Below the pieces are notes generated by a model. That model was not told the origin of the DNA and searched no databases. It was given only the letters and a program-made list of their open reading frames with translations. This document shows, one piece after another, positions 3,827 to 24,230 of a DNA stretch of 33,774 bases. A program made the position numbers and the translations under genes. Source of the DNA: a virus; IMG/VR virus record IMGVR_UViG_3300022686_000021, positions 1-33,774 of that record; one strand, written 5' to 3'. The first letter of the stretch is position 1. Each line of letters starts with the position of its first letter.

Positions 3827-4687
3827 TTAGCCTAGCACCTCCACGCCGTTCCCGTTGCGGTGGATGGTGCCTTCCGATTCGAGCGCCGTCAGGTCGTTGT
3901 ACACCGTTCCGCGACTGACACCCAACTCGGTCGCCAACTGTGTAACGCCGGGGTCGCCTCTGTTCAATACGATTTGTACAATGCGCTGACGGCGCTGTTC
4001 AACGTCGGTCTGACGCTGGGCGTTTATTTCGTCCAGTTTATTACTGTCAGAACGTGTTTTGACGCTCAGTTCAGCGTCAGCCTGTACAGGTTTCGTCTGT
4101 TCAGTGTTCACCCGGCTTTGTTCATCGTTGGACAGCGTGCTGTGCATCTCCGCCATAACATGACGCACTTGCAAGCTGACAATTTCCTTGACGCGCCGCT
4201 CCACGTATTCCCGCGCTTCGCTCACGTCAATGTCATCCAGTGCATCCGCCATCGCTTCGCCGATGCGGTCCCGCGTGCGGTCGGTCGCCTCAATGATTTT
4301 CGTCCGCCGCATGGCCGCGCTGTAGTAGCTGACCGATACCGCAAGTAGCGCCTCGCAGAATATCGGAAACCCATAGCCCATGATGATAGCCACCGCGCGC
4401 GGCATGTGCCGATTGTAGTTGAGGAACTGCACCGTACCCGATAGCAGTGCTGCGCCGATGGAACTCCACAGCAACAGCCAGAACACGAAACCGTGTCGCT
4501 GTATGTCCGTCTTTGACAACGCAATCGAAACCACAATCACCACGCCCCCCACGGCGAAACCGAGCGCGTAGGCCACGCCGGGATTGTGGTCTGCGTGGAC
4601 CAGGAAATCGCCAACATTTATCATGCTGGCAATGGCGAACACGGCCATGATGATATGTGCGGACAGTTCGAGTGTAAGTCGTTTCAT
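3827..4687 (-). CDS. Four-helix membrane protein with C-terminal HTH domain
   Basis: The start at 4687 is chosen because the ATG overlaps the upstream stop (ATGA) and has an AGGAAAG ribosome site. The 286-residue product has about four membrane helices in the first 130 residues (for example ALGFAVGGVVIVVSIAL and AIIMGYGFPIFCEALLAVSV). A charged linker with coiled-coil character follows (about 140-225). The C-terminus is a winged-helix/HTH of the type QLATELGVSRGTVYNDLTAL (about 256-275). A membrane sensor or anchor with a DNA-binding head is the simplest reading. The neighbouring FtsK-like ATPase recalls the Tra/Spd pairs of actinobacterial plasmids, where small membrane proteins accompany an FtsK-type translocase. 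That parallel is inference. It is the last gene of the operon. Confidence 0.75.
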   Translation of the reverse strand: MKRLTLELSAHIIMAVFAIASMINVGDFLVHADHNPGVAYALGFAVGGVVIVVSIALSKTDIQRHGFVFWLLLWSSIGAALLSGTVQFLNYNRHMPRAVAIIMGYGFPIFCEALLAVSVSYYSAAMRRTKIIEATDRTRDRIGEAMADALDDIDVSEAREYVERRVKEIVSLQVRHVMAEMHSTLSNDEQSRVNTEQTKPVQADAELSVKTRSDSNKLDEINAQRQTDVEQRRQRIVQIVLNRGDPGVTQLATELGVSRGTVYNDLTALESEGTIHRNGNGVEVLG

Positions 4688-7671: not shown

Positions 7672-7884
7672 CTATCCGAATACTCCGTCAATTTCACCGT
7701 TGGCGAGTAGCGTATCGAAATGCGTTTCCGCCATCAGCCGCTTTTCGTCGTCAGTCATTAACTGCTGTTCATCGCCGCCTAGGATTTTCTCGGTCAGTTG
7801 GTCCGCCCGCGCGTCTTTCTGCTGCGGCGAGCGGGTTGGCTCGGTCAATCGTGCTGCTTTGTGTAGTCTGTCTCGTCTGCTCAT
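7672..7884 (-). CDS. Small acidic protein heading the FtsK-HNH operon
   Basis: The start at 7884 (ATG with GGAG nearby) is preferred over a GTG at 7911, which lies inside a terminator stem. The 70-residue product (MSRRDRLHKAARL at the start, EKILGGDEQQLMTDDEKR in the middle) is helical and charged, with no recognised domain. It lies 14 bases before the FtsK-like gene. Its ribosome site lies directly after the U-run of the terminator hairpin at 7901-7930, so its expression probably depends on read-through or on a promoter not recognised here. Confidence 0.55.
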   Translation of the reverse strand: MSRRDRLHKAARLTEPTRSPQQKDARADQLTEKILGGDEQQLMTDDEKRLMAETHFDTLLANGEIDGVFG

Positions 7885-7900
7885 CGTAGAGTCTCCAATC

Positions 7901-7930
7901 AAAAAAGCCACGTCAATGGTGACGTGGCTT
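7901..7930 (-). terminator. Intrinsic terminator just upstream of the FtsK-HNH operon
   Basis: A perfect 11-bp stem (7905-7915 with 7920-7930, 4-base loop) is followed on the minus strand by a run of T. It would end the transcript of the RHH gene at 8050-8361. The next start codon, at 7884, is only 17 bases beyond, so it may act as an attenuator for the following operon. Confidence 0.8.
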
Positions 7931-7944
7931 GCGTGATGCTCAGA

Positions 7945-8033
7945 CTGTCCGCTATGATGGCGGATAGCCGGGCATCGGTGGTACAGTCACCGATGTTTGG
8001 TTAGGGTCGGGGATGTGTTCGTAGCACGTCCCC
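7945..8033. other. Three consecutive stem-loops with 7-nt loops in a noncoding gap
   Basis: Three hairpins follow one another: 7945-7952 with 7960-7967 (8 bp including one G-T), 7973-7980 with 7988-7995 (8 bp perfect) and 8009-8017 with 8025-8033 (9 bp including one G-T). Each has a 7-base loop. In the first and third, the G-T wobble pairs on the plus strand become A-C mismatches on the minus strand, so the fold is better for a plus-strand RNA, although both flanking genes are on the minus strand. No promoter was recognised. Confidence 0.5.
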
Positions 8034-8049
8034 GGCTCGCCTACTCTGG

Positions 8050-8361
8050 TTATCCGTTTGTGGTCGTCATCGTCGTTCTCAGTGCGTCGGTCAAGTTTGC
8101 TTCGATAGCTGCAAGGCGGGCGGCCATTTGCTCGACAGTAACCCGCGTTGCAAGTATATCCTGGTGTACTGCATCTAGATGGCGGCGTGCTTTCGCAGAC
8201 TTGCCGCCTTCCTCGTCTCGCTGCCGCCGCCAGTCTGTCCAGATGCGCCGGGCAATCTCCGAGCGGTTGCCCGCGGCCTCGGTGAAGACGCTGGCTCCTA
8301 CATCGTCCAGCGTCTCCAGGTCAAAATCGTTTACTCGCACGTTCACGCGGGTTTCGCTCAT
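8050..8361 (-). CDS. Ribbon-helix-helix (Arc-like) DNA-binding protein
   Basis: The start at 8361 has a GAGGG ribosome site and lies about 40 bases after a strong promoter; longer starts would cross the -10 box. The 103-residue product begins with ETRVNVRVNDFDLETLDDVG, a beta-strand plus helix A pattern, and continues with NRSEIARRIWTDW, a helix B pattern of RHH proteins. A helical C-terminal part follows (VEQMAARLAAIEANL). RHH dimers bind operator DNA and commonly autorepress. The gene has its own promoter and terminator. It lies upstream of the FtsK-HNH operon, so it may regulate that operon. That is inference. Confidence 0.68.
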   Translation of the reverse strand: MSETRVNVRVNDFDLETLDDVGASVFTEAAGNRSEIARRIWTDWRRQRDEEGGKSAKARRHLDAVHQDILATRVTVEQMAARLAAIEANLTDALRTTMTTTNG

Positions 8362-13528: not shown

Positions 13529-13933
13529 CTAGAACGGAATTTCTGCCGTGTCATCCGTCGTCTCGCCCTCCGTCGGGTCGGCGTTGTAGCCGTTGCCGGT
13601 GTCATTGCGCCCGCCCAGGAACTTCACCTCGCGCGCCGTCACTTCGAGACTGGCGCGATTCTCTCCGCTACGGTCGGTGTAGGCGCGGGCCTCCACGTCG
13701 TCACCGACCACCATCACCTGCCGACCTTTTGCGAGATACTGTGTGCAGACTTCCGCTAGCTTGCGCCAGCACGTGACACGATACCACGTCGTTTTGTCTT
13801 GCTTCTGTCCGTCGCTGTTGGTCCAACTGCGATTGATTGCGAGACTGAAACTGCACACCGGCGTACCGTTCGGTAGGTACCGCATTTCCGGGTCGTTGCC
13901 CAGGTTGCCAATCAGTGTAATTTGCTGGTACAT
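13529..13933 (-). CDS. ssb: Single-stranded DNA-binding protein
   Basis: The product is 134 residues with the OB-fold pattern of bacterial SSB: YQQITLIGNLGNDPEMRY at the start, PVCSFSLAINRSW, TTWYRVTCWRKLAEV, and KGRQVMVVGDDVEARAY. The C-terminus is acidic and ends in AEIPF, the usual tip that binds partner proteins (DIPF type). It protects single strands at the phage fork and recruits helicase, primase and nucleases. It lies next to the helicase, primase and initiator genes in the early operon. It is shorter than typical host SSB because the linker is reduced. Confidence 0.96.
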   Translation of the reverse strand: MYQQITLIGNLGNDPEMRYLPNGTPVCSFSLAINRSWTNSDGQKQDKTTWYRVTCWRKLAEVCTQYLAKGRQVMVVGDDVEARAYTDRSGENRASLEVTAREVKFLGGRNDTGNGYNADPTEGETTDDTAEIPF

Positions 13934-19320: not shown

Positions 19321-19761
19321 GATTCACCTCGTGAAAATCCGGGGCGATGTCTCCACCGCCCCGATTCTTCAACCTGTCCTACCCCAGGCGGCCATACTCT
19401 CACGCATGACCGCCCACACAAGCGCACCGTACGCGGTCGTGTGGAGTGGGGTGCTGCCTATGAAAACAGCACCCCGTCACAAAGAAGGAGAAACCAGAGG
19501 GGACAGTCAGTTATGCGGCGCTCCCCTGAACCGCCTGACTGTCCGCCCAGCGCCACCAACAGGCTAGTGCCGATGACGCCGGGCGGAGTGCGCCACAGGA
19601 GCGGACGCACCCCACTACCCCAAATCAAAAGGAGGTCACAACACGACGCCTCAGTACCGCAGCGTCGGTGCTACCGGCCTGTAAGGGTTGCCCAACCAGG
19701 TCAGCGGGGATGTTCGGGAGGAAACTTGCAAAAACCCGGCAACCTCTCCCCATGCTCCTAA
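19321..19761. other. Noncoding region of about 440 bp packed with stem-loops
   Basis: No convincing protein is seen on either strand. Perfect or near-perfect stems follow one another: 19340-19346/19357-19363, 19387-19391/19410-19414, 19448-19456/19467-19475 (9 bp), 19501-19510/19535-19544 (10 bp, with inner GCGG/CCGC), 19545-19552/19577-19584 (one mismatch), 19588-19592/19606-19610, 19644-19649/19662-19667 and 19706-19710/19747-19751. Three Shine-Dalgarno-like stretches on the plus strand (for example AAAGGAGGTCA at 19628-19638) have no start codon after them. The strand of any RNA is not clear. Confidence 0.5.
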
Positions 19762-19929: not shown

Positions 19930-20041
19930 CCATTGACACAATTCCTCCGTGGTCGCGCTGGTGGCGACGCACGGAGCCGGGCGAATAGTGACGCAGGAAC
20001 ACGACCGCGTCACCTGCCTTGTGTATTGTAATAATAGGCAT
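19766..20041 (-). CDS. Possible small protein overlapping the membrane protein gene
   Basis: This frame codes for 91 residues. The first 45 (PIITIHKAGDAVVFLRHY, then DHGGIVSMDGTIEHTVY) look like a small beta-barrel. The last 40 (GVCDSVCDGF, CPVCGH) run in a different frame over the membrane protein gene and may be chance. No ribosome site is visible before 20041. The two frames could be separate overlapping genes, or one gene changed by a frameshift. Codon use cannot settle it by eye. Confidence 0.3.
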   Translation of the reverse strand: MPIITIHKAGDAVVFLRHYSPGSVRRHQRDHGGIVSMDGTIEHTVYDPTVYSGGANGVCDSVCDGFRAGRTGDDDCPVCGHVVESNEPTTR

Positions 20042-20086: not shown

Positions 20087-20302
20087 CTACTCGCTCGTGT
20101 CATCAGGGGATTGCGCCGCGAGCGCCAGCATGACAACTGGCGCATTGACGTACACGTCAGCCGGTATGCGCATCCCGGCACGCTCCCACCGGCTGATAGT
20201 GGTGGTGTCTACGCCGAATGCCTCGGCTACGTCTTGTTGAGTCAATGCCAGACCCACGCGCATGGCTCTGAAAATGCGGGCTATTTGTCCATTCGTGAGC
20301 AT
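20087..20302 (-). CDS. XRE-family HTH regulator
   Basis: The second ATG (20302) is chosen because AGGA stands 8 bases before it. The 71-residue product is a single HTH domain: ARIFRAMRVGLALTQQDVAE, then FGVDTTTISRWERAG (recognition helix), then a hydrophobic C-terminal helix. It resembles small antitoxin-like or Cro-like regulators. It stands at the head of a minus-strand set and faces the plus-strand noncoding RNA promoter at 20330-20357, which it may control. Confidence 0.8.
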   Translation of the reverse strand: MLTNGQIARIFRAMRVGLALTQQDVAEAFGVDTTTISRWERAGMRIPADVYVNAPVVMLALAAQSPDDTSE

Positions 20303-20329: not shown

Positions 20330-20357
20330 TTGCCGGAATAGGCGGATATGCTATCAT
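20330..20357 (+). promoter_or_regulatory. Promoter of the 20.36 kb noncoding RNA
   Basis: TTGCCG (20330-20335) and TATCAT (20352-20357) are 16 bases apart on the plus strand, with predicted start near 20364. The match to consensus is fair rather than strong. The position is right for the structured RNA that begins about 5 bases later. Confidence 0.55.
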
Positions 20358-20363
20358 CTACTC

Positions 20364-20647
20364 TGAAATACGTGCACGGGCCTAGATCCAACGAACCGGG
20401 CGAAGGATTCCCCGGTGCTCGTTGGCTCCGGTCTATTTGCGATACATTCGCACGTAGGCCGGACTGTGCTACAATGAAGCGAATACCACAGGACGCGAAA
20501 ACGCGCCTGCGGCCATTCGACGTATTGGCTGCGCGGTCTCTAGCCATGCAAACAGTCAATACGTGACAATCGTCTCGGTATTCAGTTGCGAAATTGAGTT
20601 GCCGAGCGGAGAGGCGTCTACCCTACGGGGTGGGCGCTTTTTCTTTT
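20364..20647 (+). ncRNA. Structured noncoding RNA of about 285 nt, family not recognised
   Basis: Bounded by a promoter and an intrinsic terminator on the plus strand, with no gene inside. Visible helices: 20369-20375/20450-20456 (7 bp) enclosing 20383-20386/20432-20435, 20388-20394/20419-20425 and 20395-20400/20411-20416; 20457-20461/20510-20514 followed by 20489-20492/20506-20509 and CGCG-AAAA-CGCG (20494-20505); 20520-20527/20557-20564 (8 bp); 20574-20580/20600-20606 plus 20581-20587/20592-20598 capped by a GCGA (GNRA) loop; and the terminator. Wobble pairs in the last two helices hold only for plus-strand RNA. It does not look like tRNA, tmRNA, RNase P RNA or 6S RNA. Confidence 0.75.
20612..20647 (+). 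terminator. Intrinsic terminator with UACG tetraloop ending the noncoding RNA
   Basis: A continuous 12-bp stem (20612-20623 with 20628-20639, three G-U pairs valid only on the plus strand) is closed by C-TACG-G, a UNCG-type stable loop, and followed by TTTTTCTTTT. No protein gene lies upstream on this strand. Confidence 0.9.
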
Positions 20648-20728
20648 GGGACGCCGCCCCGCTCGCGGTGCTGAGTGGTAAAGCAATTGCAATTGCCCCA
20701 TTCTAGCACACATTTTTCTTCATTCTTA

Positions 20729-20779
20729 CTGACTAAACAGGTTTAGTTGTGACAGATTCCTTACATTCTGTTTAGTCAG
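20729..20779. repeat. Operator-like repeats after the ncRNA
   Basis: CTGACTAAACAG (20729-20740) and its exact inverse (20768-20779) enclose 27 bases. The left arm also forms the palindrome ACTAAAC-AG-GTTTAGT (20732-20747). The segment 20648-20813 holds no gene. These look like binding sites for a dimeric repressor, or the 3' hairpin of the minus-strand RHH transcript. Confidence 0.6.
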
Positions 20780-20813
20780 GATGACTTACGAATTATTGTC
20801 GTTGTTGGGTTCG

Positions 20814-21008
20814 CTAGAGCAAGGCGGCGACAGGCTGTGTGTCGGGTTCGATGACCCGCGTAAACGATGGTTTTTGGTCTAACATTCTGCGCAATGCCTC
20901 GCGCACGATATCGGAGCGGTTCATGTTCGCCCCGTACATTCGTTCTAGTCTCTTAATTACTTCCCTGTCCTCGTCAGTGAGTTTTACGTACAAATTCCAT
21001 TCTGGCAT
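20814..21008 (-). CDS. Ribbon-helix-helix repressor-like protein
   Basis: The start at 21008 has GAGGG 6 bases upstream; an ATG two codons earlier has no room for the site. The 64-residue product reads WNLYVKLTDEDREVIKRLER then NRSDIVREALRRMLDQ, the strand-helix-helix layout of CopG/Arc-type RHH proteins. It is divergent from the Sak4-like operon. Both promoters carry GTATATAC between -35 and -10, so it probably represses both. Confidence 0.75.
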   Translation of the reverse strand: MPEWNLYVKLTDEDREVIKRLERMYGANMNRSDIVREALRRMLDQKPSFTRVIEPDTQPVAALL

Positions 21009-21052
21009 TTTCATCCCTCGTTTCTTGCTCGTGTTTTCGTAAGTCAATAAAG

Positions 21053-21082
21053 AGTATATCATAGGTATATACTGTATGTCAA
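21053..21082 (-). promoter_or_regulatory. Promoter of the RHH gene at 21008 with operator-like site
   Basis: On the minus strand TTGACA (21077-21082) and TATACT (21053-21058) are 18 bases apart. The spacer holds GTATATAC (21065-21072), also found in the facing promoter. Confidence 0.8.
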
Positions 21083-21123
21083 TGGTCAATACTGCGAGTT
21101 TTCATTTTGGTATATTTTGGGTA

Positions 21124-21152
21124 TTGACAAGGTATATACTTTGTGGTATACT
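21124..21152 (+). promoter_or_regulatory. Promoter of the Sak4-like recombination operon with operator-like site
   Basis: TTGACA (21124-21129) and TATACT (21147-21152) are exactly 17 bases apart. The palindrome GTATATAC (21132-21139) lies between them. Predicted start is about 21159, giving a 110-base leader. Confidence 0.9.
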
Positions 21153-24021: not shown

Positions 24022-24078
24022 GTACACGTGTGCGCTTCGAGAGCGTAGGTTGACGCCCCGCGCGCACTCGTGTACAAT
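24022..24078 (+). promoter_or_regulatory. Late promoter with flanking inverted repeat
   Basis: TTGACG (24050-24055) and TACAAT (24073-24078) are 17 bases apart. A 14-base inverted repeat (24022-24035 against 24062-24075, one mismatch) places one arm upstream of -35 and the other across the spacer and -10, as expected for a repressor that loops or clamps the promoter. Start is predicted near 24085. Confidence 0.82.
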
Positions 24079-24090
24079 AAAACCCAATAT

Positions 24091-24218
24091 ACCCATGCCG
24101 AGGTCAGTTGCCACGAATAAAAGGTGACCGACCTTTGCATGGGTTTTTTATTTGTGGCAACTGACCTCGACACCCACTAAGGGGACCACCCACCCCCCTG
24201 GGAGAGTCGAGGTTTTTT
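24091..24218 (+). promoter_or_regulatory. Leader switch: two terminators and an overlapping 24-bp antiterminator hairpin
   Basis: Terminator 1: 24091-24098 pairs with 24137-24144 around an inner hairpin (24120-24125/24131-24136) and is followed by TTTTTATTT. Competing hairpin: 24099-24122 pairs with 24146-24169, 24 bp with a single G-U. It buries the T-run of terminator 1 and the 5' arm of terminator 2. Terminator 2: CCTCGAC (24165-24171) pairs with GTCGAGG (24206-24212), followed by six T. The elements lie between the late promoter and the CHAT-like gene at 24231, so they can decide whether the late operon is read. Confidence 0.8.
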
Positions 24219-24230
24219 GATTGGTAGCGG

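Follow-up and report, generated by a model that had tools for sequence, protein, structure and literature searches.

The lambda OOP RNA is ca. 77 nt long and has little structure beyond its terminator, and sar of phage P22 is likewise a phage antisense RNA that is compared with OOP. The c4 antisense RNA has a role in immunity, and, of the large structured RNAs, GOLLD and ROOL are often carried by phages. OOP is described as an antisense RNA that controls cII mRNA in an RNase III-dependent manner (PMC5869508), c4 (RF01695) is listed for Proteobacteria and phages (PMC2864571), and GOLLD, ROOL, and OLE are presented as large, ornate structured RNAs of bacteria (PMC12286853). Here, we analyzed an interval of a phage genome in which a preliminary description had placed a noncoding RNA of about 285 nt. 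The analysis supports the prediction of a strongly structured plus-strand RNA that is bounded by promoter and terminator motifs and belongs to no Rfam family, and we conclude that the interval is probably an RNA gene.

The DNA analyzed (hereafter the window) comprises an IMG/VR virus record of 33.8 kb (33,774 nucleotides, 57% GC). Based on protein matches to terminase, portal, DnaB, a Rep-O-like protein, ribonucleotide reductase, and tape-measure protein, the virus is a tailed phage; the single-stranded-DNA-binding protein at 13529-13933 was named from its sequence only. The portal protein is at most ca. 41% identical to those of known phages. In cellular genomes, the top match of the terminase was in a Chloroflexota MAG (58% identity), a Chloroflexaceae MAG also matched at 58%, two contigs of one Chloroflexi MAG matched at 49-50%, and the second-best E-value belonged to an FCB-group MAG. 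Since the best cellular matches include Chloroflexota MAGs, the host is likely, but not proven, to be a Chloroflexota bacterium. To our knowledge, no lysogeny switch has been studied in a phage of Chloroflexota; a literature search found none either, which is not proof of absence. The genes are mostly directed leftward to the left of ca. 20.3 kb, and rightward to the right of 21.1 kb, and the predicted RNA lies in the gap flanked by two leftward genes, coding for a helix-turn-helix (HTH) and a ribbon-helix-helix (RHH) protein (Table 1). The HTH protein is 37% identical to annotated CI-like repressors of Lactobacillus phages.

Table 1. Features of the predicted RNA, its surroundings, and the leader of the CHAT-domain gene (window coordinates)
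Feature	Position	Strand	Remarks
HTH (Cro/CI-like) regulator gene	20087-20302	−	start re-set to ATG 20302 from a Shine-Dalgarno-like CAGGAT (putative)
Outer promoter candidate	20330-20357	+	TTGCCG-16-TATCAT, TATGC extended -10; predicted start ~20364
Predicted structured RNA	20364-20645	+	~282 nt, predicted ends; fold z −8.1, first of 476 tiles
Hairpin P1	20388-20425	+	pairing probability 0.99; entirely Watson-Crick
Hairpin P2	20427-20463	+	ensemble pairing; 2 G-U
Inner promoter candidate	20447-20475	+	TTCGCA-17-TACAAT, TGTGC extended -10; inside the RNA
Hairpin P3	20480-20519	+	CGCG-AAAA-CGCG tip; 2 A.C mismatches
Hairpin P4	20520-20564	+	12-bp stem; ensemble probability 0.71
Hairpin P5	20574-20606	+	GCGA (GNRA) loop; 3 G-U
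Intrinsic terminator	20608-20643	+	16 bp, UACG loop; 10-bp GC-rich core 20614-20637, then tail UUUUUCUUUU
Minus-strand extended -10 candidate	20700-20710	−	TGTGCTAGAAT; weak -35, 3/6 at 20729; start ~20693
RHH protein gene	20814-21011	−	PF01402, E 0.006, below Pfam's cut-off
Leftward-operon promoter	21053-21082	−	TTGACA-18-TATACT
Rightward-operon promoter	21124-21152	+	TTGACA-17-TATACT; also in the syntenic relative
First CHAT-leader terminator	24092-24105 with 24130-24143		T run after
Antiterminator-like long hairpin	24099-24122 with 24146-24169		23/24 complementary; excludes both terminators
Second CHAT-leader terminator	ACCTCGAC/GTCGAGGT, latter at 24206		T run after

The plus strand of 20363-20645 was predicted to fold with −137.2 kcal/mol, compared with −95.5 (sd 5.2) in 200 dinucleotide shuffles, none of which reached this stability, while the minus strand gave a z-score of −3.2. 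With the terminator removed, the values were −6.1 and −3.3 for the plus and minus strands, respectively. The whole window was then scanned with 283-nt tiles (238 positions on both strands, 12 shuffles each, pooled sd), and the RNA tile ranked first, followed by 7814+ (−7.6; several hairpins at 7814-8100 among leftward genes), 23888+ (−6.8), and 19376- (−6.6). The fold is thus more stable than expected by chance. In an earlier scan with 150-nt tiles, 24001 and 8401 ranked higher and 20401+ was no better than eleventh among the plus-strand tiles, probably since tiles this short favor single long hairpins. The region thus stands out in the window, but several other intergenic regions of the phage are also hairpin-rich, so that strong folding by itself does not set it apart.

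The preliminary description had listed at least five helices, a GNRA loop, and an AAAA loop between CGCG arms; all were present, the helices as five stable hairpins. Ensemble pairing probabilities ranged from 0.71 (P4) to 1.0, those of P1, P2, P3, P5, and the terminator being at least 0.8, and an alternative long-range fold took part of the remaining ensemble. The terminator that, together with a promoter-like sequence, had been said to bound the interval was likewise recovered at the motif level; a simple terminator scanner reported only a 5-pair version of it. The G-U pairs had also been taken as an argument for plus-strand RNA. When stems were scored symmetrically, 81 Watson-Crick, 11 G.T, 2 A.C, and 1 other pair were counted; outside the terminator, six G.T against two A.C near-pairs agree with that direction but are too few to decide the strand alone, and P3 points the opposite way.

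The interval is gene-poor, but its coding capacity was considered as well. An open frame spans part of the region, and a short gene could be read either as a 72-aa ORF (20348-20566) or as a 30-aa tail from ATG 20474. We consider this very improbable: the first ATG sits in the outer extended -10 element, the inner -10 element extends at its end into the second ATG, and chance ORFs are common, with 213 ORFs of at least 60 aa in the window. Neither the 72-aa nor an 84-aa ORF overlapping the RNA matched Pfam or PHROGs, and they were not classed as protein-coding genes.

Both strands were scanned for a strict extended -10 element (T[A/G]TGN, then TANNNT with at least 5/6 matches to TATAAT). Six sites were found in the window, compared with 0.75 (sd 0.77) expected from first-order Markov sequences, an enrichment that is partly post hoc, as the motif was chosen after examples had been noticed. 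Five of the six lie inside 800 bp (20347-21142), at +20347, +20465, -20710, -21063, and +21142. The close relative described below (G051) also contains six such sites: four are preceded by a perfect TTGACA, one corresponds to the syntenic rightward promoter, and one stands before its CHAT gene. The motif thus seems to be a hallmark of promoters in phages of this group. The -35 boxes of both plus-strand candidates match the consensus at only four of six positions. From the inner candidate, a shorter RNA (ca. 20482-20645, 164 nt, fold z −6.7) ending at the same terminator would be made. On the minus strand, a transcript from ca. 20693 would run antisense to the RNA over its full length and enter the HTH gene; a consensus scan revealed no minus-strand terminator between 20693 and that gene, and the leader of this transcript is more weakly folded for its length (z −4.1) than the plus RNA. 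Neither the inner plus-strand candidate nor this minus-strand site is mentioned in the preliminary description, nor are the other hairpin-rich regions of the phage. The stretch from the RNA terminator to the RHH gene contains, close to the minus-strand site, an inverted repeat (20716-20792; 25-nt arms, 80%, with CTGACTAAACAG/CTGTTTAGTCAG), which may be an operator.

Because a unit of promoter, folded body, and terminator sits in the HTH/RHH gap facing a convergent promoter, we favor, with a probability of roughly 0.38, a reading in which the RNA is a terminated cis antisense or interference RNA of a lysis-lysogeny switch. Rightward transcription of the plus RNA would start at either or both of the extended -10 promoters. 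In the opposite direction, an RNA made from the promoter at 20710 or 21082 would enter the Cro/CI-like HTH gene with a long leader. The plus RNA would be fully complementary to ca. 280 nt of that leader, and convergent transcription and duplex formation would lead to polymerase collision or to cleavage, presumably by RNase III. HTH expression would be lowered when the plus RNA is made, with this direction of control and the role in lysogeny being putative. The fold, the discrete terminator, the motif enrichment, the lack of a minus-strand terminator, and the likeness of the HTH protein to CI-like repressors support the antisense reading. Several observations argue against it. The -35 boxes are poor (4/6 on the plus strand and 3/6 for minus 20710), the ribosome-binding site of the HTH gene lies outside the predicted RNA, and the RNA is far larger than known phage antisense RNAs. 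The complementarity arises only if minus promoter 20710 or 21082 is used, and a weaker candidate closer to the HTH gene, at 20376-20348, could give HTH mRNA with no overlap. The closest relative has no similar RNA, and no homologue was found in the searches described below, hence no covariation.

The main rival of the antisense mechanism, which we regard as rather unlikely, is a trans-acting structured RNA whose hairpins and loops would bind a protein (a regulator, a host RNase, or RNA polymerase) or other RNAs of the phage or its host, serving as a sponge or scaffold independently of the HTH leader. A plus strand folded far better than its complement, GNRA- and UACG-type loops, and own promoter motifs with a terminator are consistent with it. 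However, no significant duplex with 41 phage start regions was found: the best energy was −114.1 kcal/mol, compared with −99.6 to −110.7 for 10 shuffled RNAs, in a measure dominated by length. Antisense action on other phage genes was therefore rejected, the signal not being convincingly above that of shuffled RNAs. A 16-mer shared with the terminase gene is ordinary, as 8% of tiles have one, and no conserved homologue was found.

A covariance-model search of the whole window with 4227 Rfam models, including c4 and ctRNA, revealed no RNA match at gathering score, in agreement with the initial failure to place the RNA in any of the usual families; no tRNA or tmRNA was found in the window. A relaxed search (E up to 5, 651 nt) gave a single weak match, ctRNA_p42d (RF00489), which was rejected since only the terminator stem and UUUUUCUUUUG tail matched (18.5 bits, with the gathering score at 50; E 0.35). 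Similar DNA in phages and plasmids yielded nothing meaningful; one 28-base phage match covered the terminator (E 0.1), and 11 Staphylococcus matches covered the 21124 promoter stretch only. The neighboring RHH protein, used as bait, retrieved no relative. Relatives were collected by portal (80 loci) and by terminase (80 loci plus 21 genome loci). Structural genes are common to them and the window, but, single distant proteins aside, none was seen to share the early region near the RNA. Homologues of the RNA were sought with nhmmer and a one-sequence covariance model, whose sensitivity is limited by the single sequence and whose positive control was the RNA itself only (358.6 bits). No convincing match was obtained: the lowest E-values were 0.39-0.68 in 22 pattern-fetched loci, 1.5 in 14 records, and 7.2 in 88 loci, and there were no matches in 50 records (L002 plus 49 from the portal set), 231 loci, or 100 loci. 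Scanning for the 16-base pattern of the P3 tip returned 20 stretches, taken as chance, and a conserved upstream 16-base word returned eight, with the relative already known as the sole real match. Against the DNA of 400 Chloroflexota-phylum genomes, the RNA gave six matches of 22-39 bases (E 0.0002-0.009), also taken as chance; with the primase-like protein as query, an equal number of genomes yielded weak matches in three. Three further identities were rejected: a CRISPR-repeat mimic (no repeated matches among the 400 genomes), a retron (the families matched by the part of the ORFs covered include no reverse transcriptase), and a TnpB guide RNA (the TnpB of the relative lies elsewhere, and none was seen adjoining the window RNA).

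One close relative was found, the 56-kb contig IMGVR_UViG_3300023214_000125 (L111/G051), with the same order of genes for DnaB (78% identity), primase-like protein (81%), SSB (76%), VRR-nuclease (79%), and CHAT protein (78%). The matching flanks (window 19711 = L111 4616; window 21124 = L111 3957) enclose 1.4 kb in the window and 0.66 kb in L111, with no DNA similarity by blastn. The L111 interval contains a different CI-type HTH gene at 4056-4292 (Pfam HTH_3, 2e-10) and a hairpin-rich, gene-poor stretch of ca. 270 nt (z-scores of −4.0 and −5.3 in the window sense and the opposite sense, respectively), which contains no strict extended -10 element. The window-RNA covariance model found nothing convincing on L111 (best 5.6 bits, E 6). 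By this sequence comparison, the two phages do not have the RNA in common. This speaks against an essential core RNA and is consistent with the mosaic nature of immunity regions. Outside the interval, noncoding window positions 19535-19711 are 75% identical to L111 4790-4616 and hairpin-rich on the minus strand, as seen in tile 19376- above; they may be a conserved cis-element of the leftward early operon. The same contig codes for a type IV Cas7 (Csf2)-like protein beside its replication genes (L136 8513-9490; PADLOC E 2e-80); in the window, no counterpart was noticed.

Alternatively, the hairpins could be incidental to a rapidly evolving regulatory segment (operators, an origin region, or a barrier to transcription that separates divergent operons) with no RNA product that matters. 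The syntenic segment of L111, hairpin-rich yet unrelated in sequence, the cumulative GC-skew minimum at 19948, as near an origin or divergence point, and the other hairpin-rich intergenic regions of the phage agree with this explanation, while the strand asymmetry of the fold, the terminator with its U tail, and the promoter motifs argue against it, and we consider it unlikely. More speculative still, and in our view improbable, is a new class of multi-hairpin regulatory phage RNA with six stem-loops and two start sites. It would take part in the lysogeny switch of Chloroflexota phages by acting in trans as a scaffold or decoy, and every phage would have at this site a structured RNA of its own, evolved independently of the others.

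Compensatory change, which the 20364-20645 RNA lacks, was found elsewhere. The leader of the CHAT-domain gene (24231), at ca. 24069-24225, contains three overlapping, mutually exclusive arms within 24092-24218, and the same three-way arrangement precedes the CHAT homologue of G051 (complement of 34798-34960), where the long-hairpin arm differs at 6 of 18 ungapped positions and pairs at 18 of 18. Judged from these two sequences only, this is a two-state terminator/antiterminator-like leader with compensatory change, and it is the stronger RNA lead of the two. No Rfam family fits it; one miRNA model matched with 20.8 bits against a cut-off of 140. In the relative, an IS605-type TnpB gene (L135 14988-16172) lies immediately upstream of the CHAT leader. 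CHAT genes of more distant phages (L011 5383, L012 5488) are likewise preceded by promoter-like sites whose extended -10 element is covered by a GCACNNNTGTGC-like palindrome, and the palindrome occurs in the window with one mismatch, at which the word is not rare. It is possibly a shared operator.

Compared with known systems, the window RNA would resemble c4 as a structured phage antisense RNA, and the c4 model RF01695 matched it neither at gathering score nor at E up to 5. With ctRNA_p42d it has in common the terminator only, with non-standard pairs, and no plasmid-replication context was seen. GOLLD, ROOL, and OLE are several times longer, and the window RNA has no Rfam match to them. In layout it resembles OOP, as a short terminated RNA in an immunity/replication control region, opposite a predicted transcript of a regulator gene; an own promoter and an intrinsic terminator, as in OOP/sar-type RNAs, were found at the level of sequence motifs. 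Known phage antisense RNAs are much smaller, and the window RNA, with ~282 nt and five extra hairpins, comes from an unrelated host, is unrelated in sequence, and would overlap only the HTH leader, whereas OOP overlaps the cII coding sequence. The comparison is thus one of working like OOP at a much larger size, with no homology claimed. If the antisense reading is real, antisense RNA control of the repressor region would extend to Chloroflexota phages, with an unusually large folded RNA.
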